DNA of 25,212 nucleotides from a virus, in IMG/VR virus record IMGVR_UViG_3300024348_000222, positions 1 to 25,212 of that record, one strand, 5' to 3'. The notes beneath the pieces were generated by a model. That model was not told the DNA's origin. It did not search any database and saw nothing but the letters and a program-made list of their open reading frames with translations. This document shows, one piece after another, positions 1,356-25,212 of this stretch (within the stretch, counting starts at the first letter, position 1; each line of letters starts with the position of its first letter). The translations under genes and the position numbers were made by a program.

Positions 1356-3515
1356 ATGCATTTTAACAGTAAATATATTTTCCAGGGTGATTCTCAGAAA
1401 GAGATATCAAATAAGATTAATTATAATTTTGATCAGATAGTATCTTTCGCCGTGGGTCCTGATGGACATTTAGGTCCCAGAGGAGGAACTGGATTATATG
1501 GACCTGCTGGATATAAAGGTGCATCAGGGGCAACCGGAACTAGAGCTTCTAAAATATTCAAACAACCAACCCAGCCAATACCAGCAGAAAGCCAACAATA
1601 TGATGTGTGGGTGGACAACTCCTCCGGTGAAGGTGATGTTAAAGTGTTAGGAGCGACTGGTACTTGGAGCTATTCAGGATATTCTTTCTTTACTTCATCA
1701 TACTTTGCAACTTTCTCTGGAATACAAGGCCCAGCAGGATCGACTGATAAGTACGTGGTGGGAATAAAGGACGTGGCGAATTCCCCTGATATTAGTCTAG
1801 TTCTGAGCGACGGTGATCCTGTACCTTCATATTCAAATCCAAATAAATCTAAACTTCTTGTTGCCACACAGGATCAGATAACTACTCCGATAATGAGCTT
1901 TGCTAAGTCGGGAGCAGTTTCACAGGGTACTCCGTCATTTTATTGGGATTCTGTTGGTTCTAATAGGGATCTGAACTATAAATCAACAGGGGATCTTGAT
2001 ATAACTTCCCAATTAGGACTTACCGTGGATTCTTCGCTTGCAAGAACACTTCTATTTGGAAACAACTTTAATTTAACTGCATCAAGCTTTACTGTTGGTG
2101 GATCTGGCGATTTTCAATTAGCTTCAAATACGACTGTAGGTAGTGGAGGGGTATTTAATATTAAATCTTCGAATTTACTTCTTTCATCTTCATATCTTAC
2201 ACATATTGATCCGACTACGATATACGCTTCAACGGGAGGATATGTCTTAAATGACGTTCCTAATTCTGCCGGTCTTAATTCAGGGATAACTGTAGCAACT
2301 ACAGCATCAGCAAACGAAACTTTTTCAATAAACGATTTAACTGGTAACCCTATCTTATCTGGTAAGCCATATGGTACTATCGACACTGGAAAGCACTCTG
2401 AAACGATATTTGGATCTACTGGAGGTGCTACTGGAGGTACTGCTGGTCCTTTTTCATACCATGTTAGAAAGGCACCACAGGTTATAAAGAGCACGATAAC
2501 TGTTAATTCGGTTGCACTTTATCCATCAACCGCTGCGGGGACAACAACACTTAATAATGTATTCGATCTAAGTCAAACATCACTTTGGGATTCTAATGTC
2601 ATAGTAGTTACTCCGACATTATATACAGCGGGATCTCAGGGCGGAGTTTATTTAAGAGTGCCGGCTTCATATTTGAATACTTTGGATCCTGTATACAGCA
2701 CAGGGAAAACAAACATCTATCGCATTTTATTAAATAACTTAGATTCGGTACTTTATGCAAGATACATTCAGGGATTAGTTTTTAGTTACACTAATTACGG
2801 GTCAGGTGGTTTAACATCAACCTCAGTATTAAGTTATGTTGATTTTCCGACTGTCTCGGGAATAACTAGACTTTGCCAATATATCGATTTGCATTGGCTT
2901 GGTGCTGCAAACACAACCAATCTTAACCCAAGACTTTTTTATAAGGCTTGCAATGGTGTAGGTGGATACGTTGAATTGACAAATCTAAATAGTATAGGAT
3001 CAAGCCAGCCTATTACGTCAGGAACTTCTCCAGCAACATCGGGAGGTGAATATGATACTGGCGGTGGATATGATGAGCCTTTCGATCCTATTCCTGGATC
3101 ATCTTGTCCAACACCAGATATGCTTATATTCTTGGGAGAAGATAGATGGATTCCTGCCGGTGAAGTTGAAATTGGCACAGAGGTTTATACCATGCACGAA
3201 CACACTAATGAATGGGGTTATTATACCGTATCTCATGTGGAAAGAGCGATACAACCAGTTATATCTGCTGTGATCGGTGGTAAGGAAATACGTGCTTCTG
3301 AATCTCACAGATTCTTAACAACCGACGGTGAATATATTGCACTAGCTGAACTTGCTGAAGGTTCCGTACTTAAAACAGTAGACGGTACGGTAATTCTGGA
3401 ATCCAAGGAAGATATAGGAAACATGGAGGTCGTTAAGATAGAGGTATGCAATGCACATACTTACGTTCTTGAAGGCGTATTATCTCACAATATTAAAGTC
3501 TACATAGGATTATAA
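1356..3515 (+). CDS. Fibre-like structural protein with C-terminal Hint domain
   Basis: This 719-residue protein begins with a short region typical of phage fibres (QKEISNKINYNFDQIV), then a collagen-like run of Gly-X-Y triplets at about residues 34-63, then a long Ser/Thr/Gly/Asn-rich beta-type body. Residues of about 145-200 repeat the module of the upstream gene (LVLSD, IMSFAK, FYWD). Residues 584-712 form a Hint domain: it begins with Cys584 (CPTPDM), carries a block-B-like His (SESH), and ends with SHN at 710-712, followed by only seven residues (IKVYIGL). Hint domains catalyse an N-S acyl shift at the first Cys and cyclisation of the final Asn; whether this one cleaves, splices or transfers is not visible. 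The nearest relative in the window is the C-terminus of the gene at 4654. It is probably an adhesive tail or baseplate fibre; the exact role is unknown. Confidence 0.7.
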   Translation: MHFNSKYIFQGDSQKEISNKINYNFDQIVSFAVGPDGHLGPRGGTGLYGPAGYKGASGATGTRASKIFKQPTQPIPAESQQYDVWVDNSSGEGDVKVLGATGTWSYSGYSFFTSSYFATFSGIQGPAGSTDKYVVGIKDVANSPDISLVLSDGDPVPSYSNPNKSKLLVATQDQITTPIMSFAKSGAVSQGTPSFYWDSVGSNRDLNYKSTGDLDITSQLGLTVDSSLARTLLFGNNFNLTASSFTVGGSGDFQLASNTTVGSGGVFNIKSSNLLLSSSYLTHIDPTTIYASTGGYVLNDVPNSAGLNSGITVATTASANETFSINDLTGNPILSGKPYGTIDTGKHSETIFGSTGGATGGTAGPFSYHVRKAPQVIKSTITVNSVALYPSTAAGTTTLNNVFDLSQTSLWDSNVIVVTPTLYTAGSQGGVYLRVPASYLNTLDPVYSTGKTNIYRILLNNLDSVLYARYIQGLVFSYTNYGSGGLTSTSVLSYVDFPTVSGITRLCQYIDLHWLGAANTTNLNPRLFYKACNGVGGYVELTNLNSIGSSQPITSGTSPATSGGEYDTGGGYDEPFDPIPGSSCPTPDMLIFLGEDRWIPAGEVEIGTEVYTMHEHTNEWGYYTVSHVERAIQPVISAVIGGKEIRASESHRFLTTDGEYIALAELAEGSVLKTVDGTVILESKEDIGNMEVVKIEVCNAHTYVLEGVLSHNIKVYIGL
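3105..3491 (+). other. Hint (intein/hedgehog-type) domain, copy 1
   Basis: This segment encodes residues 584-712 of the fibre-like protein. Visible signature elements are Cys at position 1 followed by PTPDM, an IGTEV turn at 23-27, SESHRFLT with the block-B-like His at 68, AHTYVLEG at 117-124 (block F-like) and terminal SHN (block G-like). At 129 residues it has room for the splicing fold only, with no homing endonuclease. The residue after Asn is Ile, not the Cys, Ser or Thr needed for standard splicing. Confidence 0.85.
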
Positions 3516-3545
3516 AATTTACCAATATAAAAAAAATAGATAAAT

Positions 3546-3812
3546 ATGATACAACTAACAAAAAAAGAACAAGAGGGTATGCTTAACCTATCTAAGGAAT
3601 TCGTAAGCATTCACCAAGAGATCTTGCAGGTTGAAAGAACTATCAAGGAAATGGAGGATCGATCATCCGAACTAATAGGACAATTAGAGAGATGTAGAGA
3701 GGATGAAGGGGATTTCATTTCTGGATTAGAAAAAAAATACGGACAGGGCTCGTTAGACCCTATTAATCTAACATGGCAAAAAGAAACTATAAAAGATGAA
3801 ATACATCAATAA
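3546..3812 (+). CDS. Small predicted coiled-coil protein, unknown function
   Basis: The 88-residue product is highly charged and predicted helical: MIQLTKKEQEGML, then IHQEILQVERTIKEMEDR and further heptad-like spacing of Leu/Ile with Glu/Lys. It has no signal peptide and no Cys. The start follows an A-rich leader containing TATAAAAA (3526-3533) and no Shine-Dalgarno. Its last 17 bases overlap the next gene, which encodes a membrane-anchored protein with its own helical segment, so the two are translationally linked and may interact. I do not recognise a family. Small coiled-coil proteins at this kind of site can be chaperones or lysis accessory proteins, but nothing in the sequence decides this. 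Confidence 0.7.
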   Translation: MIQLTKKEQEGMLNLSKEFVSIHQEILQVERTIKEMEDRSSELIGQLERCREDEGDFISGLEKKYGQGSLDPINLTWQKETIKDEIHQ

Positions 3813-4644
3813 AGAAAATTTAAACAAAGCAGCTGGATTACTAAATAACCGGTTTTTCTTGTTAGCAGTGATCGTGATTTTAATTATGCTTACTCTAAAA
3901 CAATGTGGAGCAGCAGATCACGCCAAAGCAGAGGCTCTAAGAGAGCATAACAATTACCTTGCTTCATTGGACTCTGTTAGGGTTATTAAAAATGATCTTG
4001 GTGAGCTAATCGTTGAAAAATCTGCTTATCAGTTAAAGGTATCAGAATTAAGCAAAGAACAGAAGGATTTGATTAAAAGACTAGATTTAAACTCTAACGG
4101 AAGAGGAAATACACCTAGAACAGTAATTCAAACAGTTTCTGAATATAGAGATAGTATAGTAAATATAGCTTCGGAGGTTGTTAAGGATCCTAATGGATCT
4201 GAAGCAATCGCATTCTTGCATGAACCACAATTACCAGGAAAAAATAAATTGAAAATAGCAGGTAAAGTTCCCTATGATCTTAGACTTTCTAAAGATCCAA
4301 GAGACACTACCAAATATATCGCATCTGTTATCCCAGGTGGAACTTCTTTAACTATAGAACAAAATATTGACATAGTGACTGCATTATATCAGGATCCTAA
4401 ATCTAAAAGAATAATGACAAGAGTAAGTACAACATATCCCAACTTAACTTTTAGTGATGTTAATTCTTTTGATATAACGGATAACCCTGAAACTAGAAAA
4501 GCTTTAAAAGCTGCTAGAAAGGAATTTGGACTTGGTGTTAATTTAGGATATGGATTACTTGGCTCATCCACAAGTTTAACAACAGGATTTTACATTGGTG
4601 TCGGTGTTCACTACTCACCAAAATTTTTACAATTTGGAAAATAA
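3796..4644 (+). CDS. Membrane-anchored coiled-coil protein, possible envelope or spanin-like role
   Basis: The 282-residue protein has one clear transmembrane segment near its start (about residues 19-36, RFFLLAVIVILIMLTLK) followed by Cys38. Residues of about 45-100 are charged and helical, consistent with a coiled coil. The middle holds a basic or polar domain, and the C-terminus (about 245-280) alternates Gly, aromatic and hydrophobic residues like outer-membrane beta strands (LGVNLGYGLL, FYIGVGVHYSP). The layout of inner-membrane anchor, periplasmic coil and beta-like tail is what an envelope-spanning phage protein could look like, hence the spanin suggestion. The region around Cys38 (LKQCG) is a poor lipobox, so a lipoprotein is not supported. 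It overlaps the preceding gene by 17 bases and lies nine bases before a virion protein gene. Function is inferred only. Confidence 0.6.
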   Translation: MKYINKENLNKAAGLLNNRFFLLAVIVILIMLTLKQCGAADHAKAEALREHNNYLASLDSVRVIKNDLGELIVEKSAYQLKVSELSKEQKDLIKRLDLNSNGRGNTPRTVIQTVSEYRDSIVNIASEVVKDPNGSEAIAFLHEPQLPGKNKLKIAGKVPYDLRLSKDPRDTTKYIASVIPGGTSLTIEQNIDIVTALYQDPKSKRIMTRVSTTYPNLTFSDVNSFDITDNPETRKALKAARKEFGLGVNLGYGLLGSSTSLTTGFYIGVGVHYSPKFLQFGK

Positions 4645-4653
4645 AATATAAAA

Positions 4654-7389
4654 ATGGCATTTACTACTACATCTAAGTTTGTCCAGATTACTCCATATTT
4701 ATTGATGGAGTATATGTACGCTGACGAACCCACACCAGAAACACACTTTGTTAATAACGGTGGGGTTACTGTTGGATATGATAAATTAATAAATGGATTT
4801 AGAAGTAATAATGTCCAAGTATTTAATAAGGATTCCAATTACGATACAACACATAACACCACGGAAAACAACGTGGTTAGAATCGGAGAGAGCTCGTTCG
4901 TAACACTCGATTCAAATCTAATTGTACCATTCAACGACTATTCGGATGAATTAACCAACACGGTGGATTTACCGATCGTTTTTCCTTCCAATCTATTGGT
5001 TGTTTATGATACCGTAAGATATCACATAAGAGCTGGATATAATCTAAACAACATAGATGGTATCATCTTGACTGTTGAGTACCAGGATCAAAATCTAGAA
5101 TATGTTACAGGTTCACAGATACTTATTAAGAAAGGAACTGAGCAGGAATATTTCTTAAATCCAAATCCTGTAACTATCGGTTCCAATATCTATGATAAAT
5201 ATTTCGAGATAAAGTTGCCGAATCTGAAGGATATGAATGACAAGTATCTTGCAGCTTCTCCAGCATTTCAGCCTGATACCTTGGCATCGTTGATAAGCTC
5301 GAGTGGGGATGGGTTCATTTACGGAGCTCCAATAAGGGTAACAGCTTGGCAAGTACAAAATACTGTCGATTATAATGGATATCCAAGATATGACTGTGCT
5401 AGAATAGCAACATTATCTTTAGAGCAGGAGGATCCATTTTCCAATATTGGTGCAACCATAAAGGAATCGGAGAGGGGTCAATTCTTTGAATACTATGCAA
5501 CCGATAACGAGGGATTCATAGAGGATTTTATACTATTCCAGAATTCAATAGGAAACGGGTATTACATAAGTCATCAAATAGAGGTACTTGAACAAATAGG
5601 GGCTGCACTTATACAGACATCGGGATTTCAGTCAATCCAGACAACAGCATACGATCTGCCTAATTACTATCGACCTATAGTTAAAAATGCTGCTGTTGCT
5701 GCAAGTTTTACTTTGAGATATACGATGTCGCTAATCAATAGCGTTGACCAAAGCAGAGTTATCAGGATATCATCATATAGTTCAGTAAATCCTGCACAAT
5801 GGGGTACCAGTATAACTCCAATTAAATTAAGTACATTCCCGCAGGTACAGAAAATTTATAATAGGGTTTATTCTCAAGCATCAATAACAGTTGGCGGAGG
5901 AAATACAAATCAGCCTAAGGAGATAGTTAAATACACTAACGTCTTCATTAACCAAAATTACGTTACCTCAACCGTAAATAATCTGACATTCACTGACAAT
6001 ACACTGAAGATAAATTCAGGAGCAGAACAAACAACAGCATTCGGAACTGGTAAAATGACAATTTCGATTTCTCCTTTTGATAATTATTACAAATTTAAAT
6101 TTATTAAAAGCGGACCTTCTTCGGATCCTGTTGCTATCGACTTAAGTGCTTCCGGGAAATTCAATATATCTTTTGTTGATCCGGTTGGTAATAAAATACA
6201 GGTTCCTGCTTTGGAAGATAAAAATTTAGCAAATCCTTCTGCCGGAGAACTTGCATTTAAAATTGATGAATCTATATCAACTAAGGTGCTTCAATTAAAC
6301 GATAGAAGATTCTTCATCACTAATGGAACCTCTATAAACACAGCACAGGACGGTGTTGCTACAAAGCAGGTAGTTTCTGTTGATTCCGGCGTCACTAGTA
6401 ATGTCATCGAGAAAAGAATAGAATCTGTAATAGCGAATAGAAGAAATGAAGCTGCGGCGATAAATGGAGCCAATAACTACATAAACTTACCTGCATCTAA
6501 TATACTTACTCCGGTTAATAATGCTAATTCTGTTATGTACTGGGGTTATTGGAAAAAGGAGGGTGAGGCTGATTTCGTTACCGGACCTACTGCAGCACCT
6601 GCACCTGTAATAACATCAGGAAGCGGAACTGGTATGGTTGGCGCAATTGAAGCTAGTCCGAGTCCGATTATTAAAAATATACTGCCTTTAAGCTCAACTT
6701 CTGGAATTTTCACAATAGGAGCAGCAACTTCAAATACATACGAGACTTTGACCGGAAGCGCTCTTATCGCAGCTTTAAGCGCTGAGATCGCCGGTTACAA
6801 CGCTACTGGGTGGAAAGATCAAACGATAATTAATTATTTCCTAACTCCAGGTAAAGCTGGTTACATTAAATATCCAGGACTAACCAAAGCAGAATTTACT
6901 AAAGCTGCAACCGGTATTTTAGCACCTGCATCTTTAACCAATCTGAATAAAAGGAACAAAGGCGGAGGAGGTGGATGTCCTACTCCAGAGATGAGAATCT
7001 TATTGGCCGACGGTAATAGCATAAAAGCTGGGGATATAAAGGTTGGTACTAAATTATGCACGGTCCACGAGAAAACAGGAGAATGGGGTCACTATAAAGT
7101 TTCTTACGCTGGAAGAATGATACAACCAATACTTTCTGTTAAAATAGGGGGCACTTCAGTCAAGGTGTCAGAATCTCATAAATTCTTAACAGAGAATAAT
7201 GGTTACGTTACGATATCAGATCTTAATATAGGATCCGTTATTAGAACAGTTAATGGATTATCTAAACTGGAAAGTAAAAATAGAATCGGCGAAGGTGAAG
7301 TCGTTAAAATAGAGGTCGAAGAGGCACACACTTATGTAATGGAAGGAATAATTTCTCATAACATTAAAGCTGCTACGGAGGTTCTATAA
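4654..7389 (+). CDS. Large virion structural protein with C-terminal Hint domain
   Basis: The 911-residue protein has no signal peptide and a mixed beta-rich composition. Its body (1-770) is not recognisable by eye, but its size and position before a tail-tube-like gene fit a tail or baseplate component. A Lys/Arg and Gly-rich linker (NKRNKGGGGG) leads to Cys775, which opens a 129-residue Hint domain ending at SHN (901-903), followed by eight residues (IKAATEVL). The Hint domain aligns without gaps to the one in the gene at 1356, with about half the residues identical. The Gly run looks like an exposed linker presenting the scissile bond. The start lies directly behind AAAATATAAAA, with no Shine-Dalgarno. 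It is co-directional with, and 15 bases ahead of, the tail-tube-like gene. Whether the mature virion keeps the Hint domain is the key unknown. Confidence 0.7.
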   Translation: MAFTTTSKFVQITPYLLMEYMYADEPTPETHFVNNGGVTVGYDKLINGFRSNNVQVFNKDSNYDTTHNTTENNVVRIGESSFVTLDSNLIVPFNDYSDELTNTVDLPIVFPSNLLVVYDTVRYHIRAGYNLNNIDGIILTVEYQDQNLEYVTGSQILIKKGTEQEYFLNPNPVTIGSNIYDKYFEIKLPNLKDMNDKYLAASPAFQPDTLASLISSSGDGFIYGAPIRVTAWQVQNTVDYNGYPRYDCARIATLSLEQEDPFSNIGATIKESERGQFFEYYATDNEGFIEDFILFQNSIGNGYYISHQIEVLEQIGAALIQTSGFQSIQTTAYDLPNYYRPIVKNAAVAASFTLRYTMSLINSVDQSRVIRISSYSSVNPAQWGTSITPIKLSTFPQVQKIYNRVYSQASITVGGGNTNQPKEIVKYTNVFINQNYVTSTVNNLTFTDNTLKINSGAEQTTAFGTGKMTISISPFDNYYKFKFIKSGPSSDPVAIDLSASGKFNISFVDPVGNKIQVPALEDKNLANPSAGELAFKIDESISTKVLQLNDRRFFITNGTSINTAQDGVATKQVVSVDSGVTSNVIEKRIESVIANRRNEAAAINGANNYINLPASNILTPVNNANSVMYWGYWKKEGEADFVTGPTAAPAPVITSGSGTGMVGAIEASPSPIIKNILPLSSTSGIFTIGAATSNTYETLTGSALIAALSAEIAGYNATGWKDQTIINYFLTPGKAGYIKYPGLTKAEFTKAATGILAPASLTNLNKRNKGGGGGCPTPEMRILLADGNSIKAGDIKVGTKLCTVHEKTGEWGHYKVSYAGRMIQPILSVKIGGTSVKVSESHKFLTENNGYVTISDLNIGSVIRTVNGLSKLESKNRIGEGEVVKIEVEEAHTYVMEGIISHNIKAATEVL
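6976..7362 (+). other. Hint (intein/hedgehog-type) domain, copy 2
   Basis: This segment encodes residues 775-903 of the 911-residue virion protein. It begins with Cys (CPTPEM), contains SESHKFLT with His at domain position 68, AHTYVMEG at 117-124, and ends SHN. By hand count 68 of 129 positions match copy 1 with no insertions or deletions. There is no endonuclease insert. The residue after Asn is Ile. Confidence 0.87.
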
Positions 7390-7404: not shown

Positions 7405-7953
7405 ATGTTACTTAATCCAAAATCTAGCAGTTTTTACTTTGTCTTCCCTAAGGGATTTTTTCCCGCTAAGGTTGTGGATAAGTATTTACCATATTTAAAA
7501 AAGCAACCTATCCCATTTGATACTGTATCTGCCTATATGAACAGTACTATCAGATCTGTTGGGTTTCCGTCGATGACGATCGATTCGGTTGAGCAAGTAA
7601 GACCGTTGGGGAAAAAGATCAACTATAAAAGTGGAACACCTGTTCAAGAGCTTTTTAGCAAGGACTTTGCTATTCAATTTAAATTGGTTGACGGCTTTAT
7701 AAATTATTTTATAATGCTTGATACTATTTTGCACTTTTTGGACTTTGAAAACCCCAATTTGTTCATACAGGATTTACCGCTTAGAGTAATGGATAATGAG
7801 GGAAATATAGTGACATCAGTTTCTTTCCAGGGGGTAACATTAACATCTTTTTCCGAGATAGAATTAGCATACACATCCAATGCACCACAAACTGTTTCAT
7901 TTAATGTTGGATTTAAATGCAACTACATAGATATAGTTTTGGAAGCTAAATAA
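7405..7953 (+). CDS. Tail tube or tube-initiator-like protein
   Basis: The 182-residue product has the size and feel of the T4 gp19/gp54 tube family: a short N-terminal arm, a central segment with VGFPSMTIDSVEQV then a loop, a strand such as KDFAIQFKLVDGFINYFIM, and a C-terminal pair of strands (QTVSFNVGFKCNYIDIVLE). In this family the protein stacks as hexameric rings forming the inner tail tube, or starts tube polymerisation on the baseplate. I cannot tell tube from initiator, and the match is by pattern only. It follows the 911-residue virion gene by 15 bases, in an A-rich gap without a Shine-Dalgarno, and closes the structural part of the window. No odd residues or truncation are visible. 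Confidence 0.5.
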   Translation: MLLNPKSSSFYFVFPKGFFPAKVVDKYLPYLKKQPIPFDTVSAYMNSTIRSVGFPSMTIDSVEQVRPLGKKINYKSGTPVQELFSKDFAIQFKLVDGFINYFIMLDTILHFLDFENPNLFIQDLPLRVMDNEGNIVTSVSFQGVTLTSFSEIELAYTSNAPQTVSFNVGFKCNYIDIVLEAK

Positions 7954-12330: not shown

Positions 12331-13884
12331 ATGTTAAAATTCCAAGTTTCCGAAGACCAACAATGGATGATTTTAATCGAGTCACTTGATGAGGTGGAGA
12401 AAAAACAAATAGACATCTCATTAACTAAAAAGATCCATAATTTTTATTTCCATCCTCTTGTTAAAAAGAAGATCTGGGACGGAAGTATATGCTTCATAGA
12501 AAAGAAGGGCGGATTTTGGAAAGTCCCAATTGGATTGTGGAGAGAGCTTTTACAGATTGGTGAGGAGTATAAGATAGAGATAGAGATCAACGGAATAGAA
12601 AATATAATACTGAAGGATCCAACTCTGGAGGAATTTACTGAGTGGGTCGATGAGTTTTTCAAAGATGGTATTGGAGGAGATATAAATAAAAAACCTAGAG
12701 ATTATCAGATAGAGACCGCATGGAAGCTGATCAAATACAGATACTCGGTTTCCGAGGTGGCAACATCTTCGGGTAAAACGTTAATCGCCTTTATGATATT
12801 TTCATATCTTAAATCTAAAGGTTTAATTAAGAAGTTTCTGATGATCGTTCCTAGTACTAACTTGGTCTTTCAGGGAAGCGAAGATTTCGAAGATTATGGA
12901 CTAGATAGAATAGGAACTAAGATTCAACAAATCGGAGGAGGAAGCAAATTAAGAGAGGGATGTGATCTTATTATAGGAACATTTCAATCATTGGTGAAAC
13001 AGGATGATGAATTCTTTGCTGATGTCGATGCGGTCTTTGTAGATGAGGCACATCACACAAATAGCATGTCCATAAAAAAGATCGTTGCACACTGCATGCA
13101 TTCTAAATGGAGATTTGGTCTAACCGGTACATTAACAAAAAGAGGCACTGCGGACTATTTAACAATTCAGCAATTTCTGGGTCCTCTTGTTGTAGAGATT
13201 CCACCAAGCTTCCTTTTTGATAATAACTATGCAACACCCGTTTCTATTAAGGTGGTTGTCATGGATTGGCTCGAACCGGAATACAAAGAAAAACTTGCGG
13301 AGCTTAAGTCCAACAATAGCAAAGGAGGTGACAATAAGATAGAGGGTAACGAATTTTATAATATAGAGAGAAAGCTTGTTATCGAAAGCAAGAAGAGGCT
13401 TAATTATGTTGTTGACTTCATCAATAAAACATCAAAGAATTCACTGGTTCTATTTCAATCTGTTAAGGATGAGTACGGTAAGCAAATATGGAACTCGCTC
13501 AGAGAAAAGAGCTCTGATAGGGAAGTATTTTACGTTGACGGTGACACCGACGAGGGATTAAGGGAGGAATACAAAACAAGAATGTCTACCGGAACAAACA
13601 AGATCCTGATAGCAACATATGGTACATTCGCCACCGGTATTTCGATCAACAACCTGCACAATATTTTCCTTGTCGAATCATATAAAAGTGAGGTGTTAAT
13701 CAAACAAAGTCTTGGTAGAGGGATGCGTAAGATGGACGGAAAGGAAAAGGTTAATGTGATAGATTTCGTGGATGACTTTAGTACCAAGGGATATCAAAAC
13801 TACCTAATAAAGCATAGTGAGGCAAGAATACAGATCTACAGAAAGGAATGCTTCGATTACAAGATATTTAATGTTAAACTTTAA
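12331..13884 (+). CDS. uvsW: UvsW-like superfamily 2 helicase
   Basis: The 517-residue protein (T4 UvsW about 503) has an N-terminal domain of about 115 residues, then helicase motifs in order: Walker A TSSGKT (145-150), DEAHH (238-242), LTGT (264-267) and motif VI QSLGRGMRK (459-467). UvsW unwinds branched DNA, regresses stalled forks and removes R-loops, moving phage replication from origin-dependent to recombination-dependent mode. The PRDYQIETAW segment just before Walker A is a Q-motif-like element seen in this subfamily. It follows the uvsY-like gene by 11 bases. The next gene begins after a 36-base gap with a TATATAGA element, so the recombination cluster ends here. No truncation or missing motif is visible. 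Confidence 0.88.
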   Translation: MLKFQVSEDQQWMILIESLDEVEKKQIDISLTKKIHNFYFHPLVKKKIWDGSICFIEKKGGFWKVPIGLWRELLQIGEEYKIEIEINGIENIILKDPTLEEFTEWVDEFFKDGIGGDINKKPRDYQIETAWKLIKYRYSVSEVATSSGKTLIAFMIFSYLKSKGLIKKFLMIVPSTNLVFQGSEDFEDYGLDRIGTKIQQIGGGSKLREGCDLIIGTFQSLVKQDDEFFADVDAVFVDEAHHTNSMSIKKIVAHCMHSKWRFGLTGTLTKRGTADYLTIQQFLGPLVVEIPPSFLFDNNYATPVSIKVVVMDWLEPEYKEKLAELKSNNSKGGDNKIEGNEFYNIERKLVIESKKRLNYVVDFINKTSKNSLVLFQSVKDEYGKQIWNSLREKSSDREVFYVDGDTDEGLREEYKTRMSTGTNKILIATYGTFATGISINNLHNIFLVESYKSEVLIKQSLGRGMRKMDGKEKVNVIDFVDDFSTKGYQNYLIKHSEARIQIYRKECFDYKIFNVKL

Positions 13885-15417: not shown

Positions 15418-17478
15418 ATGTCAGGAATAAGTCACTTATATGATATTTACAACAAGAAGGGTAAAGATTTTATTAACAATCTCTTTAACTCCTATGTGAC
15501 CGTTAATGAAAAGATGGATGGATCCGCTTTTGTGTTTGACAGGGATTTGGAAACTGGCAGATTTAATTTTTATAAAAGAGATCAGAGAAATCCTATCACT
15601 CTGGTTGATAGAACACTCATGAAGTATTATGAGATTCCTATCCAATACATCGAATCATTACCTCCTCATATAATAAAGGATATTCCGAGAGGTTGGAAAT
15701 TTGGACTTGAATATTTTGCAAATATAAAACCTGTTGAGATTGCGTATGATAGATTACCTAAGAATAATCTGATTCTTTCATACGTCCACACTAAGAGCGA
15801 AAATGGTAAGCCATCAGCCACCATACAGGACAAGGAAAAACTTGATACATGGGCAGATTTATTGGGAGTTGAAAGACCACCGATAGTTTTTCAAGGTTAT
15901 CTAAACGAAGAACAGAAGGATAAAATACTGGACTTTCTAAGAACACCATTTGAAGAGCTTGTTAGTGAATATAAAACCAGAAGTTTTGTTCGCTATATTA
16001 TCGGTGTGCTTAATCCGGAGGCTCAAGCTAGTGCTTTAAACAACGATCTAGATAAGCCTATCGAGGGTATAGTTTTTAGATTTGGTGAAGAAGATGGTGA
16101 ATCTGAACCGATACTTTCAAAGATGGTTGATCCAGTATTCACGGAAATGGCTAAGGAGAAATCGAAGAAAAAGATAGAAGAAAAGCCTAGCGATTTCTTG
16201 GGTATAACCATATTGGATGTAATGAACTTTATATTAGAAAGAGGTGTTGATAGCTTCGGAGTCAGTGGAAACACCGATGACGAGAGATACATCTCATTCA
16301 TATCTGATGTTTTTGCCAAATTCCTTGAAGAATACGGCTACAAATACAAGGGAGCGGATTTTCAGGAGCCTGATTATTTAAAGAAGGATGAGTTTAGATT
16401 AAATAAACCACTCATAAAGGATAAAAGAGTATTAAGCTATCTTGAATCTGATGATTCTTACGAGTCTTTATTTAAACTAATTCTAAATTCATTTAGGAAG
16501 ATAAAGAAAAGAGCAGGTGGTATTATCACTGCCGGTATAATCGACCAATTCAATTTATTGGTTGGTGACATCCAAAGGGTGGTATCAGCTAAGAGCACTC
16601 CAAAAATACAGGAATCGCAAGTTCCTTCATTCCTTGATTTTAAGAAAAATAATCTATCTGCGAAAACCGTGGATTATACAACCTCAGAGAACGAGGAATC
16701 CGACAAGAACGAGGAAGAATACGACCACTTCTATTCATATAACGAATTCATCTCAGCTTTAGAGACTCTGGACACACAAGAAAAACCAAAGGAGATCATA
16801 ACGGAGACCGATGAGAAAAAGGAGGAACCTAAAGAAAAAGAATTGCAGGACGTAAATCTTTTAATTGGTAGATTCCAACCATTCCACAACGGACATATGA
16901 ATATGGTAAAGAAAATGGCAGAGGAGAACGAGTTACCTAGTATTATTGCTGTTGTACATCCCGGACATAATAAATCTGGTAAAACTCCATTCAGCGAGGA
17001 TCTTGTTTCTAAATACATGGAAACAGTTGTTAAGGAGAATGCTGGTAAGATACTTGGATATTTTATTATCAATAGAGGTCTTCTTGGAGTCATTTACGGG
17101 AAGGCTAAAGAACTTGGATATTTGGTTAAGGCCATTGCAGCTGGTGATGATAGAATAGATGACTATAAAAAACAAGCGGAATACCTTAAGAAAGCTGGTG
17201 GAGATTTTCCTGAAGACATCGAGTTAATACAGACCCCAAGATCCAGCAGTGGAACTGAGGTTAGAGAAAAGATAGATAATGAGGATTTCGTGGGATTCAA
17301 AAAATTGGTTCCCCATGCGGTTGCTACTTTCTACGATCAGCTAGTTTCATCTCAAAAAGGTAGGGAACTTAAAGAATCCGAGGAAGTTAATTTTCTAAAT
17401 GAATATGGTGACGAAAAAACCAGAGAAGAAATAGAGAGAGAATTAGCAAATAAAGAAATAAAAAATAACGAACAATAA
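15418..17478 (+). CDS. Fused nucleic-acid ligase-like / NMN adenylyltransferase-like protein
   Basis: The 686-residue protein joins two enzymes. The N-terminal part has covalent nucleotidyltransferase motifs: K32 in EKMDGS (motif I), a FGLEYF strand at about 100, E216-G217 in KPIEGIVF (motif IV) and K235 in LSKMVDP (motif V), as in ATP-dependent RNA and DNA ligases. Residues of about 240-390 are helical and unrecognised. A long charged linker (400-480) leads to a nucleotidylyltransferase of the NMNAT type: GRFQPFHNGH (484-493, the HxGH motif) and PRSSSGTEVR (607-616, the ISSTxxR-like motif). NMNATs make NAD from NMN and ATP. Within the linker SYNEFISALE (440-449) looks like an embedded capsid-targeting leader. 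Two bases separate it from the next gene. Whether the ligase acts on RNA or DNA, and uses ATP or NAD, is unknown. Confidence 0.75.
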   Translation: MSGISHLYDIYNKKGKDFINNLFNSYVTVNEKMDGSAFVFDRDLETGRFNFYKRDQRNPITLVDRTLMKYYEIPIQYIESLPPHIIKDIPRGWKFGLEYFANIKPVEIAYDRLPKNNLILSYVHTKSENGKPSATIQDKEKLDTWADLLGVERPPIVFQGYLNEEQKDKILDFLRTPFEELVSEYKTRSFVRYIIGVLNPEAQASALNNDLDKPIEGIVFRFGEEDGESEPILSKMVDPVFTEMAKEKSKKKIEEKPSDFLGITILDVMNFILERGVDSFGVSGNTDDERYISFISDVFAKFLEEYGYKYKGADFQEPDYLKKDEFRLNKPLIKDKRVLSYLESDDSYESLFKLILNSFRKIKKRAGGIITAGIIDQFNLLVGDIQRVVSAKSTPKIQESQVPSFLDFKKNNLSAKTVDYTTSENEESDKNEEEYDHFYSYNEFISALETLDTQEKPKEIITETDEKKEEPKEKELQDVNLLIGRFQPFHNGHMNMVKKMAEENELPSIIAVVHPGHNKSGKTPFSEDLVSKYMETVVKENAGKILGYFIINRGLLGVIYGKAKELGYLVKAIAAGDDRIDDYKKQAEYLKKAGGDFPEDIELIQTPRSSSGTEVREKIDNEDFVGFKKLVPHAVATFYDQLVSSQKGRELKESEEVNFLNEYGDEKTREEIERELANKEIKNNEQ

Positions 17479-19928: not shown

Positions 19929-22900
19929 ATGGCTCAATTCCCATCCAACCCCCGAATAGGACAAGCTTTTCTTGCAGACTCTAATCTTTATGTTTGGAGT
20001 GGCTACCAGTGGATCGTTGCACAGGTGGGGAATAGCTCAGCAGGTACATCGGGAACTAGTGGTGTTGATGGTAATTTCTACGGTTCCTCAGGATCTAGTG
20101 GAACGAGAGGATCCAGCGGAACATCGGGAACACCCGGAACACCTGGTGGTGACGGTGAACCAGGATCAGCAGGAACATCAGGAATCAATGGGTCCAGCGG
20201 AACATCAGGATCAACAGGAACACCAGGATCTTCTGGATCTTCTGGATCAGCAGGAACATCGGGATCAACAGGAACGCCGGGATCTTCAGGATCTGCTGGA
20301 ACTTCGGGAGCAATAGGATCTCCAGGGTCTCCTGGATCTGCTGGAACATCAGGAACACCTGGTTCTGCTGGAACATCTGGTTCTAATGGTTCCTCCGGGG
20401 TCAGTGGTGTCAATGGGGTTGATGGTTCTACAGGAACTAGTGGAACTAGTGGAAGCTCCGGTGTAACCGGATCTGCTGGAACTTCAGGCTCCTCAGGATC
20501 TGCTGGAACTTCGGGAGCAATAGGATCTCCAGGGTCTCCTGGTTCTGCTGGAACATCAGGAACCCCTGGTTCTGCTGGAACATCTGGTTCTAATGGTTCT
20601 TCCGGAGTCAGTGGGGTCAACGGTGTTGATGGATCTGCTGGAACTAGTGGAAGCTCCGGTGTAACCGGATCTGCTGGAACTTCGGGATCTGCTGGAACAT
20701 CAGGATCTGCTGGAACATCAGGAGCAATAGGATCTCCTGGATCTCCTGGATCCTCCGGAACATCAGGATCCACGGGAACATCTGGTTCTTCCGGAGTCAG
20801 TGGGGTCAACGGTGTTGATGGATCTGCTGGAACTAGTGGAAGCTCCGGTGTAACCGGTTCTGCTGGAACATCGGGTTCTGCTGGAACATCAGGATCTGCT
20901 GGAACATCAGGATCTGCTGGAACATCAGGATCTGCGGGAAGTACAGGATCAAGCGGATCAAGCGGATCTTCGGGTCAAAGCGGATCTTCCGGAACATCAG
21001 GATCGAATGGATCTTCCGGAACATCAGGATCAACTGGAACCTCTGGATCTTCTGGTGTCAGCGGTGTCAATGGTGTTGATGGATCTGCAGGAACATCTGG
21101 AGCTAATGGATCTTCGGGAACATCAGGATCGAATGGATCTTCGGGAACATCAGGATCGAACGGATCTTCGGGAACATCAGGATCATCAGGCTCTTCCGGA
21201 GCATCGGGAGGATATCTTAGCATAACCCAGCTATTAGATAATATTCCGGCTACTACGAGATCAGGTTCTACTATAGTAACTGAATGGACAACTTCATATA
21301 CGTCTGTTGCTGGTAGTACATTAATGTTTAACCTTAGCTTTTCTGCATATGTTCCTTCGAGTTTAGGCGCAAAACAATTTGATCTAGTTATAGACAGTGT
21401 AACTGTTGCATCAACAACATTTTTCTTTAACTCAGTAAATGTTCATGCCACAATACCTTGCTTATTTAACGTAGAGAATCTATCAGCCGGTTCTCATAAT
21501 ATTCAAATAAGAATACCTTCTGGTGTTACTGTAGATGCACAAGACTATGCTCACCTAACAGTTATAGAAACTATGGGTACCGGAGTACCTGGATCTTCCG
21601 GAACAAGCGGTATATCGGGATCTTCAGGATCTAGTGGAACCTCTGGCTCTTCAGGTTCATCTGGCTCTTCTGGAACAAGAGGATCTTCCGGATCAAGCGG
21701 AACATCGGGTTCAACCGGGACAAGTGGAACTTCCGGATCGACTGGAACTTCCGGAACATCAGGATCCTCTGGTGTCAGCGGGGTCAATGGTGTTGATGGA
21801 TCTGCGGGAACTTCCGGTGTCAATGGTTCGTCCGGAACATCCGGATCTAGTGGGATTTCTGGATCTAGTGGGGCATCGGGAACATCAGGATCTAGTGGAA
21901 CATCAGGATCTAGTGGAACATCAGGATCTAGTGGAAGCTCTGGATCTAGTGGAAGCTCGGGAACTAGTGGTTCAGCGGGAACTTCAGGAACAAGTGGAAC
22001 ATCGGGATCTTCTGGAACGAGCGGAACATCAGGTTCATCCGGTGTCAGTGGGGTGAATGGAGTTGATGGATCATCAGGAACAGCTGGATCAACAGGGACT
22101 AGTGGAACCTCGGGATCTTCTGGATCAGCGGGGACTAGTGGAACTTCCGGATCTGCTGGAACAAGTGGAACATCAGGTTCTTCCGGAAGTTCTGGATCTA
22201 GTGGATCCAGTGGAACAAGAGGATCTGCAGGAACATCAGGATCTTCTGGAACGAGTGGAACATCAGGTTCAAGTGGAACAAGTGGAACATCAGGATCAAC
22301 CGGAACAAGTGGAACATCGGGTTCTTCTGGAAGTTCCGGATCTAGTGGGTCTAGTGGAACAAGAGGATCTTCTGGGTCTGCTGGAACATCGGGATCTTCT
22401 GGAACAAGTGGAACATCAGGATCAACCGGAACTAGTGGAACATCGGGTTCTTCAGGATCTAGTGGGTCTAGTGGAACAAGGGGATCTTCTGGAACATCAG
22501 GTTCAACGGGAACAAGTGGAACATCAGGTTCATCCGGTGTCAGTGGTGTGAATGGAGTTGACGGTAACAACGGAGCTAATGGATCAAGTGGAACTTCAGG
22601 CACCAGTGGTTCAAGTGGAATTTCTGGCTCTAGTGGTTCAAGTGGTGTTTCTGCTACAATATTTAACAATGCTGACGATCGGGTAATTACCGGTAGTAGC
22701 ACCTCCGGACAGCTAAACGGGGAAAGCGGATTTACATTCAACGGAACTACAGCATATATTAACGGTGCCCTTGGGGTTGGTACATCAACACCAACAACTA
22801 CAGGTTTAATTAGGGCCACCAATGACATCGTGGCATATTATTCTTCCGATGAAAGGCTAAAGGAGAACAAGGAGATAATACAGGATCCTCTGTATAAATT

Positions 22901-23162
22901 ATCTAGCATATCTGGATATGAGTTTGACTGGATACCTAAGAAGGGAATACACGAAAACGAGGGAAGGGATATAGGGGTAATCGCCCAGGAGATAGAGAGA
23001 ATTTTTCCGCAGCTTGTTCAGACCAGAGATAATGGCTATAAGGCGGTAAAATATGAAAAACTTGTACCCGTCTTAATAGAAGCTATAAAGGCATTAAAAT
23101 CTGAGGTTGATATTCTTAGGATGGAGAACGCTGATATTAGAAATAAAATAAGTAAACTTTAA
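19929..23162 (+). CDS. Collagen-like receptor-binding fibre with S74 self-cleaving chaperone domain
   Basis: The 1077-residue protein starts with a short [11 protein letters not shown]-type fibre N-terminus, then a collagen-like Gly-X-Y block (about 36-427, mostly GSS, GTS, GSA and GTP triplets), a non-repeated beta-sandwich-like domain (429-550) and a second collagen-like block (551-908). The end is a beta-rich spacer and an intramolecular chaperone domain of the peptidase S74 family: S973-D974 in [11 protein letters not shown], with K978 as the expected Ser-Lys dyad, then [15 protein letters not shown] and a leucine-rich coil. S74 domains trimerise the fibre, then cut themselves off. The Gly-X-Y blocks would form a triple helix holding the shaft apart. 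This is probably the host-recognising tail fibre. [11 protein letters not shown] segment recurs seven times as a landmark between runs. Confidence 0.85.
20034..21209 (+). repeat. Collagen-like Gly-X-Y coding repeat, block 1
   Basis: About 390 residues of uninterrupted Gly-X-Y triplets, built from degenerate 9- and 18-base units such as GGATCTGCTGGAACATCA. The [10 protein letters not shown] segment occurs four times here. Longer blocks (for example [18 protein letters not shown] and what follows) are nearly exact copies, pointing to internal duplication. Synonymous codons vary between copies. Confidence 0.9.
21579..22652 (+). repeat. Collagen-like Gly-X-Y coding repeat, block 2
   Basis: About 358 residues of Gly-X-Y triplets, enriched in GTSGTSG and GSSGSSG, with [10 protein letters not shown] three times and [12 protein letters not shown] strings as a second landmark. 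It has fewer Pro-containing triplets than block 1 and is separated from it by the beta domain. Confidence 0.9.

Positions 23163-24443: not shown

Positions 24444-25212
<769 letters not shown>

Follow-up and report, generated by a model that had tools for sequence, protein, structure and literature searches.

Predicted Hint-domain tails on phage tail-type proteins, with a lysine conserved behind the terminal His-Asn

Phage Hint domains have so far mostly been described as inteins in enzymes. Elsewhere, the hedgehog autoprocessing domain, which has no terminal His-Asn, works on a lipid acceptor and transfers cholesterol; PT-HINT domains are followed by a toxin domain; and BUBL BIL2 belongs to a eukaryotic polyubiquitin-like context. 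For the BIL domain of C. thermocellum, we take the native +1 residue to be Ala. A-type BIL domains are defined by a terminal His-Asn and the lack of a required +1 nucleophile, and domains resembling them mainly cleave (reviewed in PMC7765530, PMC7664689). Peptidase S74 is a self-removing C-terminal chaperone of phage fibres, with catalytic residues that differ from those of the tails described here (PMC7824862). Searches of the open-access full-text literature brought up inteins in phage enzymes and no account of virion proteins with Hint tails.

Two C-terminal tails in one phage genome fragment

The window, i.e. the whole stretch of DNA analysed, is one entire 25.2-kb IMG/VR record. Two of its genes, P0001 and P0002, encode proteins with closely similar C-terminal tails. 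The features referred to below are:

1356..3515, + strand: P0001, open reading frame of a 719-aa fibre-like protein with body residues 1-583; weak collagen-like repeat and tail-fibre matches, and tailless homologues among relatives
3000..3104, + strand: variable Gly/Ser/Pro linker from the last conserved body motif to Cys1, recognised by its dN/dS and by tailless homologues that end in or near it
3105..3491, + strand: predicted Hint tail 1, P0001 residues 584-712, with Cys1 at 3105-3107 and His-Asn at 3486-3491
3492..3512, + strand: trailing peptide IKVYIGL behind Hint tail 1, with +1 Ile and +2 Lys (3495-3497)
4654..7389, + strand: P0002, open reading frame of a 911-aa probable baseplate or tail protein with body residues 1-774; tail-tube neighbour, MaF61 homologue and viral fold neighbours
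6961..6975, + strand: GGGGG immediately ahead of Cys1 in P0002; family-wide, positions -1 to -5 most often hold Gly
6976..7362, + strand: predicted Hint tail 2, P0002 residues 775-903, with Cys1 at 6976-6978 and His-Asn at 7357-7362; AlphaFold model with VIA Z 19-20 to inteins and BIL domains
7363..7386, + strand: trailing peptide IKAATEVL behind Hint tail 2, with +1 Ile and +2 Lys (7366-7368)
7405..7953, + strand: tail-tube protein, a context gene (phrog_45, E 7e-10)

The original prediction had described a matched pair of 129-residue C-terminal Hint domains, at residues 584-712 of P0001 and 775-903 of P0002, on bodies that do not look alike, and both observations were confirmed. The tails, each running from CPTP to SHN, were identical at 68 of 129 positions without a gap (chance level: mean 9, maximum 20 identical positions in 10,000 shuffles), with 60% identity of their DNA. 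The full-length BLASTP match between the two proteins (E 7e-41) was due to the tails, and the bodies compared alone gave no significant match (best E 1.5). Fibre tails and P0002 tails fell largely into separate clusters, tails mostly keeping to one type of body; as judged from this clustering, the two tails of the window did not arise by a recent duplication.

The Hint identity of the tails, also part of that prediction, was weak in Pfam and clear by structure and by profile comparison with PDB sequences. Profile search bore it out in part, as Pfam recognised both tails with matches that all lay below its cutoffs (PF14890, E 3e-5; PT-HINT, E 0.004). On tail 2, PF07591 (PT-HINT) reached 17.8 bits against a gathering score of 27.7, and on tail 1 it was not listed up to E 1; some distant relatives of the tail family passed this gathering score. 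In the AlphaFold model of P0002, the tail (pLDDT about 70-88) was predicted to adopt the horseshoe Hint fold that characterises the HINT superfamily, so that the structural check agreed with the prediction at a Z of about 19-20. Compared with inteins, BIL and hedgehog domains by VIA, it gave best Z values of 17-20 with an rmsd of about 1.4-2.2 over 123-139 residues (DnaB inteins, 20.0-20.5; BUBL BIL2, 19.6; C. thermocellum BIL, 19.0), and the best Foldseek E was 3e-10. The nearest PDB sequence to a profile of 18 tails was 2lwy (E 3e-10). We infer a Hint fold for tail 1 as well, because of its 53% ungapped identity to the modelled tail 2. Cys1, the block-B His and the terminal His-Asn were present in both tails and an endonuclease in neither; the +1 residue is Ile in both. 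With no Cys, Ser or Thr at +1, canonical splicing would be unavailable.

The P0001 body showed a weak collagen-like repeat and weak tail-fibre matches. The P0002 gene adjoins the tail-tube gene (phrog_45), and its homologue in Flavobacterium phage MaF61 is flanked on both sides by baseplate genes; on these two grounds P0002 probably belongs to the baseplate or the tail. The weak fibre matches and the gene neighbourhood suggest that both P0001 and P0002 are virion proteins. A first model of P0002, built from 9 sequences, had a poor body and a second, built from 41, a better one; in a comparison of this better body with the PDB no convincing named fold was found, and its viral fold neighbours were uncharacterised myovirus proteins. 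In four loci (L086, L087, L089, L095) the P0002 homologue is split at about residue 593 with the remainder in another frame, through a frameshift, an intron or an assembly fault. Elsewhere the window encodes a cytidylyltransferase-like domain fused to an RNA-ligase-like domain (15418-17478) and an Hsp20 followed by a DnaK-like protein (24444-25212).

Occurrence and selection of the tails

Relatives with the same tail were collected first by close search and then by profile. With the P0002 body alone as query, 71 loci were found, and most of these proteins stop directly behind the body. The P0002-type tail was present in the window, L039, L065, L055, L071/L072, L076 and L080, as well as in the distant homologues L025, L027 and L031; L077/L078 carry a second Hint family at the same position. 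In some twelve loci the fibre gene of the neighbourhood ends in the first Hint family, in L053, L071/L072, L074 and L076 it ends in the second (CF..GT...VHN), and in the remaining loci it has no Hint; in L053 the fibre place is taken by a different body with a beta-propeller repeat, again Hint-terminated. Tailless fibre homologues stop 12-34 residues short of the Cys1 position. The second-family tails of L053 and L077 match Pfam AXH (PF08517; E 4.5e-12 and 4.1e-8), which may point to a relation between AXH and Hint or to a common profile.

Tail presence differed between close relatives, and the tails lay behind variable linkers. On a tree of P0002 bodies, the minimum number of changes was 3-5 for the state of the P0002 tail and 5-7 for that of the fibre tail, varying with the choice of rows, gain and loss being indistinguishable. 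Judged from these homologues, the tail is an optional, exchangeable module on P0001- and P0002-type proteins. Both tails co-occurred in one genome in 6/7 versus 6/32 cases (Fisher 0.002); because these amount to only 2 independent pairs on the tree, linked co-occurrence is not claimed.

Purifying selection acts on both tails. In a comparison with the nearest relative, the fibre tail had a dN/dS of 0.11 and the P0002 tail one of 0.05, close to the values of the respective bodies (0.07 and 0.03); for the final 20 linker residues of the fibre it was 0.58, versus 0.07 in the fibre body.

Fibre homologues from three loci (L052, L067, L070) carry quite different, unrelated C-terminal extensions exactly at the position of the Hint tail. 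Like the repeated changes of tail presence on the tree, this would suit a module whose catalysis goes unused, the Hint serving in folding, in trimerisation or as a receptor-binding tip and being one of several C-terminal modules exchanged there. We regard this as quite unlikely, given that the catalytic residues are nearly universal in the wider family described below and are lost jointly in the one lineage without an N-flank. A selfish mini-intein or intein relic that came to be C-terminal by chance would account for the fold and ancestry common to inteins and for the sporadic distribution. This appears highly improbable: there is no endonuclease, and +1 is never Cys, Ser or Thr; the tails stand at the ends of variable proteins, unlike the helicase intein of relatives, which lies in a conserved enzyme motif; and they largely keep to their own body type instead of moving freely.

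The original prediction had proposed a dedicated processing tail in place of a selfish intein, and one half of this stands. With the Hint fold, intact catalytic residues, purifying selection, a C-terminal position and neither endonuclease nor +1 nucleophile, the tails are more like an autoprocessing domain than like a selfish intein. The other half, that virion maturation has the tail as a dedicated or required step, does not hold as stated, since most homologues of both proteins have no tail and end near the would-be cut. The Hint tails are conserved and probably active, yet optional.

Catalytic residues and a lysine in the wider phage family

The wider family was scanned with the internal motif [IL][TE]VxxAHTY[VFI], which selects on neither end of the domain. 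The scan matched 188 stretches, 162 of them encoding relatives; the 77 loci retained yielded 64 distinct complete domains, and only one match was incomplete, cut by a contig end. A 68-domain alignment was made of these 64, the two window tails, L142 and L229; nearly all were found by the internal motif, and the conservation of AHTY is therefore by construction of the search. Cys1 was present in 65/68 domains, the block-B His (His68) in 65/68, S/T65 and the terminal His-Asn in all 68, and T29-x-H31 in nearly all. The family thus shows the residues of the HINT superfamily, Cys/Ser at position 1 and (T/S)xxH in block B. In one lineage (L181, L206, L213) the Hint stands at the protein N-terminus; it has no Cys1, Asp in place of the block-B His, and an HN-Lys that is kept. 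This joint loss argues that the N-side residues are retained for catalysis and are absent where an N-flank, their target, is missing.

Residues -1 to -5 before Cys1 are most commonly Gly across the family. In many marine members 100-980 residues lie behind the Hint, so that it is not always a terminal tail. Besides the collagen-like fibre and the P0002 family, the bodies include J-like tail-tip proteins (L142, phrog_31/5616; L229, phrog_1101), DUF4815 proteins (L164, L177), DUF4214 proteins (L034, L166) and a jacalin-like lectin protein just below the Pfam cutoff (L030). A first scan of bacterial genomes found no close relatives of the tails, and a second gave distant Hints only, one of which fits the family: this tail protein from a Sphingomonas genome (L229; Phage-tail_3, Rcc01698_C, phrog_1101) has SHNIK, ends 8 residues later and was the only bacterial match with the family's other marks. 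A control scan for viral PT-HINT gave only 2 partial loci.

Some proteins carry more than one such domain. L035/L036 have a tandem pair of this family's Hint domains in one protein, and in L187 and L209 a weak second Hint-like match lies downstream of the Hint (preceded by GGGGGC in L187) and may represent a further C-terminal Hint-like type. In Ruminococcus phage NatCom_3870 (L141), three adjacent proteins have PT-HINT-like domains followed by differing C-terminal domains, in a polymorphic-toxin-like arrangement.

From sequence and model together we consider it probable that the tails are BIL-like, A-type-like autoprocessing Hint modules on the C-termini of tail-, fibre- or baseplate-type proteins, and that a thioester of the body is resolved by cleavage or aminolysis. 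As the fold and residues suggest, Cys1 would attack the preceding peptide bond, and an N-S acyl shift would leave the body ending in a thioester. By analogy with BIL chemistry, hydrolysis or an amine would then resolve the thioester, and cyclisation of Asn129 would free the trailing peptide. The proposed cut would leave the body near the natural end of tailless homologues, an agreement of ends that is observed. The module would thus probably trim or chemically activate phage structural proteins; a part in the timing of assembly, or in joining the body to an amine, is our guess. Its benefit is unclear, as most homologues manage without a tail, which counts against this explanation.

Among the 64 family members, +1 was Lys in 46, Ile in 8, Val, Arg and Met in 3 each and Leu in 1, and never Cys, Ser or Thr; members without Lys at +1 have it at +2. 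Lys thus stood at +1 or +2 in 34/34 clusters at 60% identity and in 20/20 at the 50% threshold, counts that are non-independent events because the clusters share ancestry, and at +3 to +12 of the 34 clusters Lys made up 0-8% with no common sequence. It was retained with 6-20 trailing residues as well as with up to 980, and 4/5 tails of the second Hint family also have it at +1. Thirteen distant bacterial Hints, mostly from toxin-like proteins, have C, A, G, S, E or T at +1 and Lys at +2 in 1/13; the Fisher value of this comparison (1e-10) ignores shared ancestry and is to be read as descriptive. Genuine inteins from the same searches read HN/T (L007) and SN/C (L129) at the junction. In the P0002 model the residues behind HN are of low confidence. 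The best explanation of the conserved Lys is that it belongs to the function of the module, as acceptor amine or as tuner of C-terminal cleavage; it may be an acceptor, a brake on C-cleavage or part of the fold.

Taken further, this constancy of the Lys could mean that it replaces the +1 Cys, Ser or Thr of splicing. Its amine (that of the side chain, or the alpha-amine after Asn cyclisation) would attack the thioester and link the body, perhaps through an isopeptide bond, to the peptide or module behind the Hint, while the Hint itself is freed. The C-terminus of the tail protein would so be moved to an amine in cis or trans, giving a covalent or branched tail part. The exact placement, the retention ahead of short and long trailing parts and the second Hint family all suit such a ligation, and titles in the reference lists of PMC7765530 and PMC7664689 name BIL splicing without a nucleophilic +1 side chain. 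We nevertheless think it unlikely: the Lys stays in the lineage that has lost Cys1 and is therefore not kept only for attack on a thioester, and joining a 7-residue peptide offers no obvious benefit.

By analogy with hedgehog, the acceptor might instead lie in trans, the thioester being resolved by an amine on the host surface or on a different virion protein, with the body anchored covalently. The kinds of protein that bear the family would fit this, namely tail tips (phrog_31/5616, phrog_1101), fibres and one lectin-like protein, in many cases with a flexible Gly linker ahead of the Hint, but no acceptor was identified, and the 7-8 residues behind the Hints of the window leave no region for recognising an adduct; such attachment seems very unlikely to us.

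Comparison with known Hint systems

The Hint/BIL type itself is known; what appears to be new is a widespread phage-tail Hint family with a lysine fixed behind HN, which the original prediction had missed. This large Hint module, optional and exchangeable, occurs on baseplate-type proteins, fibres and tail tips of phages, and its Lys is constant where splicing needs Cys, Ser or Thr. Were it active, phage tails would gain a chemical step of maturation or attachment, and protein ligation a useful natural Hint that accepts amines. Point mutants can test the mechanism directly, given this lysine and the lineage from which both catalytic residues of the N-side are missing.

Inteins such as gp41-1 and DnaB have the fold, Cys1, block B and HN in common with the tails, which differ in being terminal and optional in homologues and in having neither endonuclease nor C/S/T at +1. 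Class 1 inteins have C/S/T at +1 and are inserted in conserved proteins with a needed C-extein; both tails have I at +1, 7-8 residues follow them, and tailless homologues end earlier. An intein reading of the tails was ruled out by the +1 residue and the position. In L129/L130, relatives of window 12331-13884, the helicase carries an intein with an endonuclease-like insert at DE/C...SN/CHH, which the helicase of the window does not have.

PT-HINT (PF07591) gave a weak profile match for 10/18 members of the tail family. The window tails were not assigned to it, as they score below its gathering cutoff and the residues behind them are no toxin domain. The hedgehog autoprocessing domain (1at0) resembles the tails in fold (Z 17.1) and in C-terminal thioester chemistry. 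BUBL BIL2 of Tetrahymena (6y75, 6tmm) was the top Foldseek match, at only 14% identity. Peptidase S74 belongs to an unrelated Pfam family and is alike in being a C-terminal, self-removing fibre domain; the window itself encodes a long, collagen-like fibre that ends in one (19929-23162), so that a second type of self-processing tail would not be surprising in this phage.

The closest likeness is to the A-type BIL of C. thermocellum (2lwy), which shares with the tails the Hint fold, Cys1, the terminal His-Asn without a +1 nucleophile, and a location in variable regions of non-conserved proteins. The putative A-type-BIL-like assignment is based on these definitions and on the nearest PDB match. 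What sets the tails apart from this BIL is their place on phage tail-type proteins, the signature of T-x-H-[E/Q] and AHTY, and a Lys fixed at +1 or +2.
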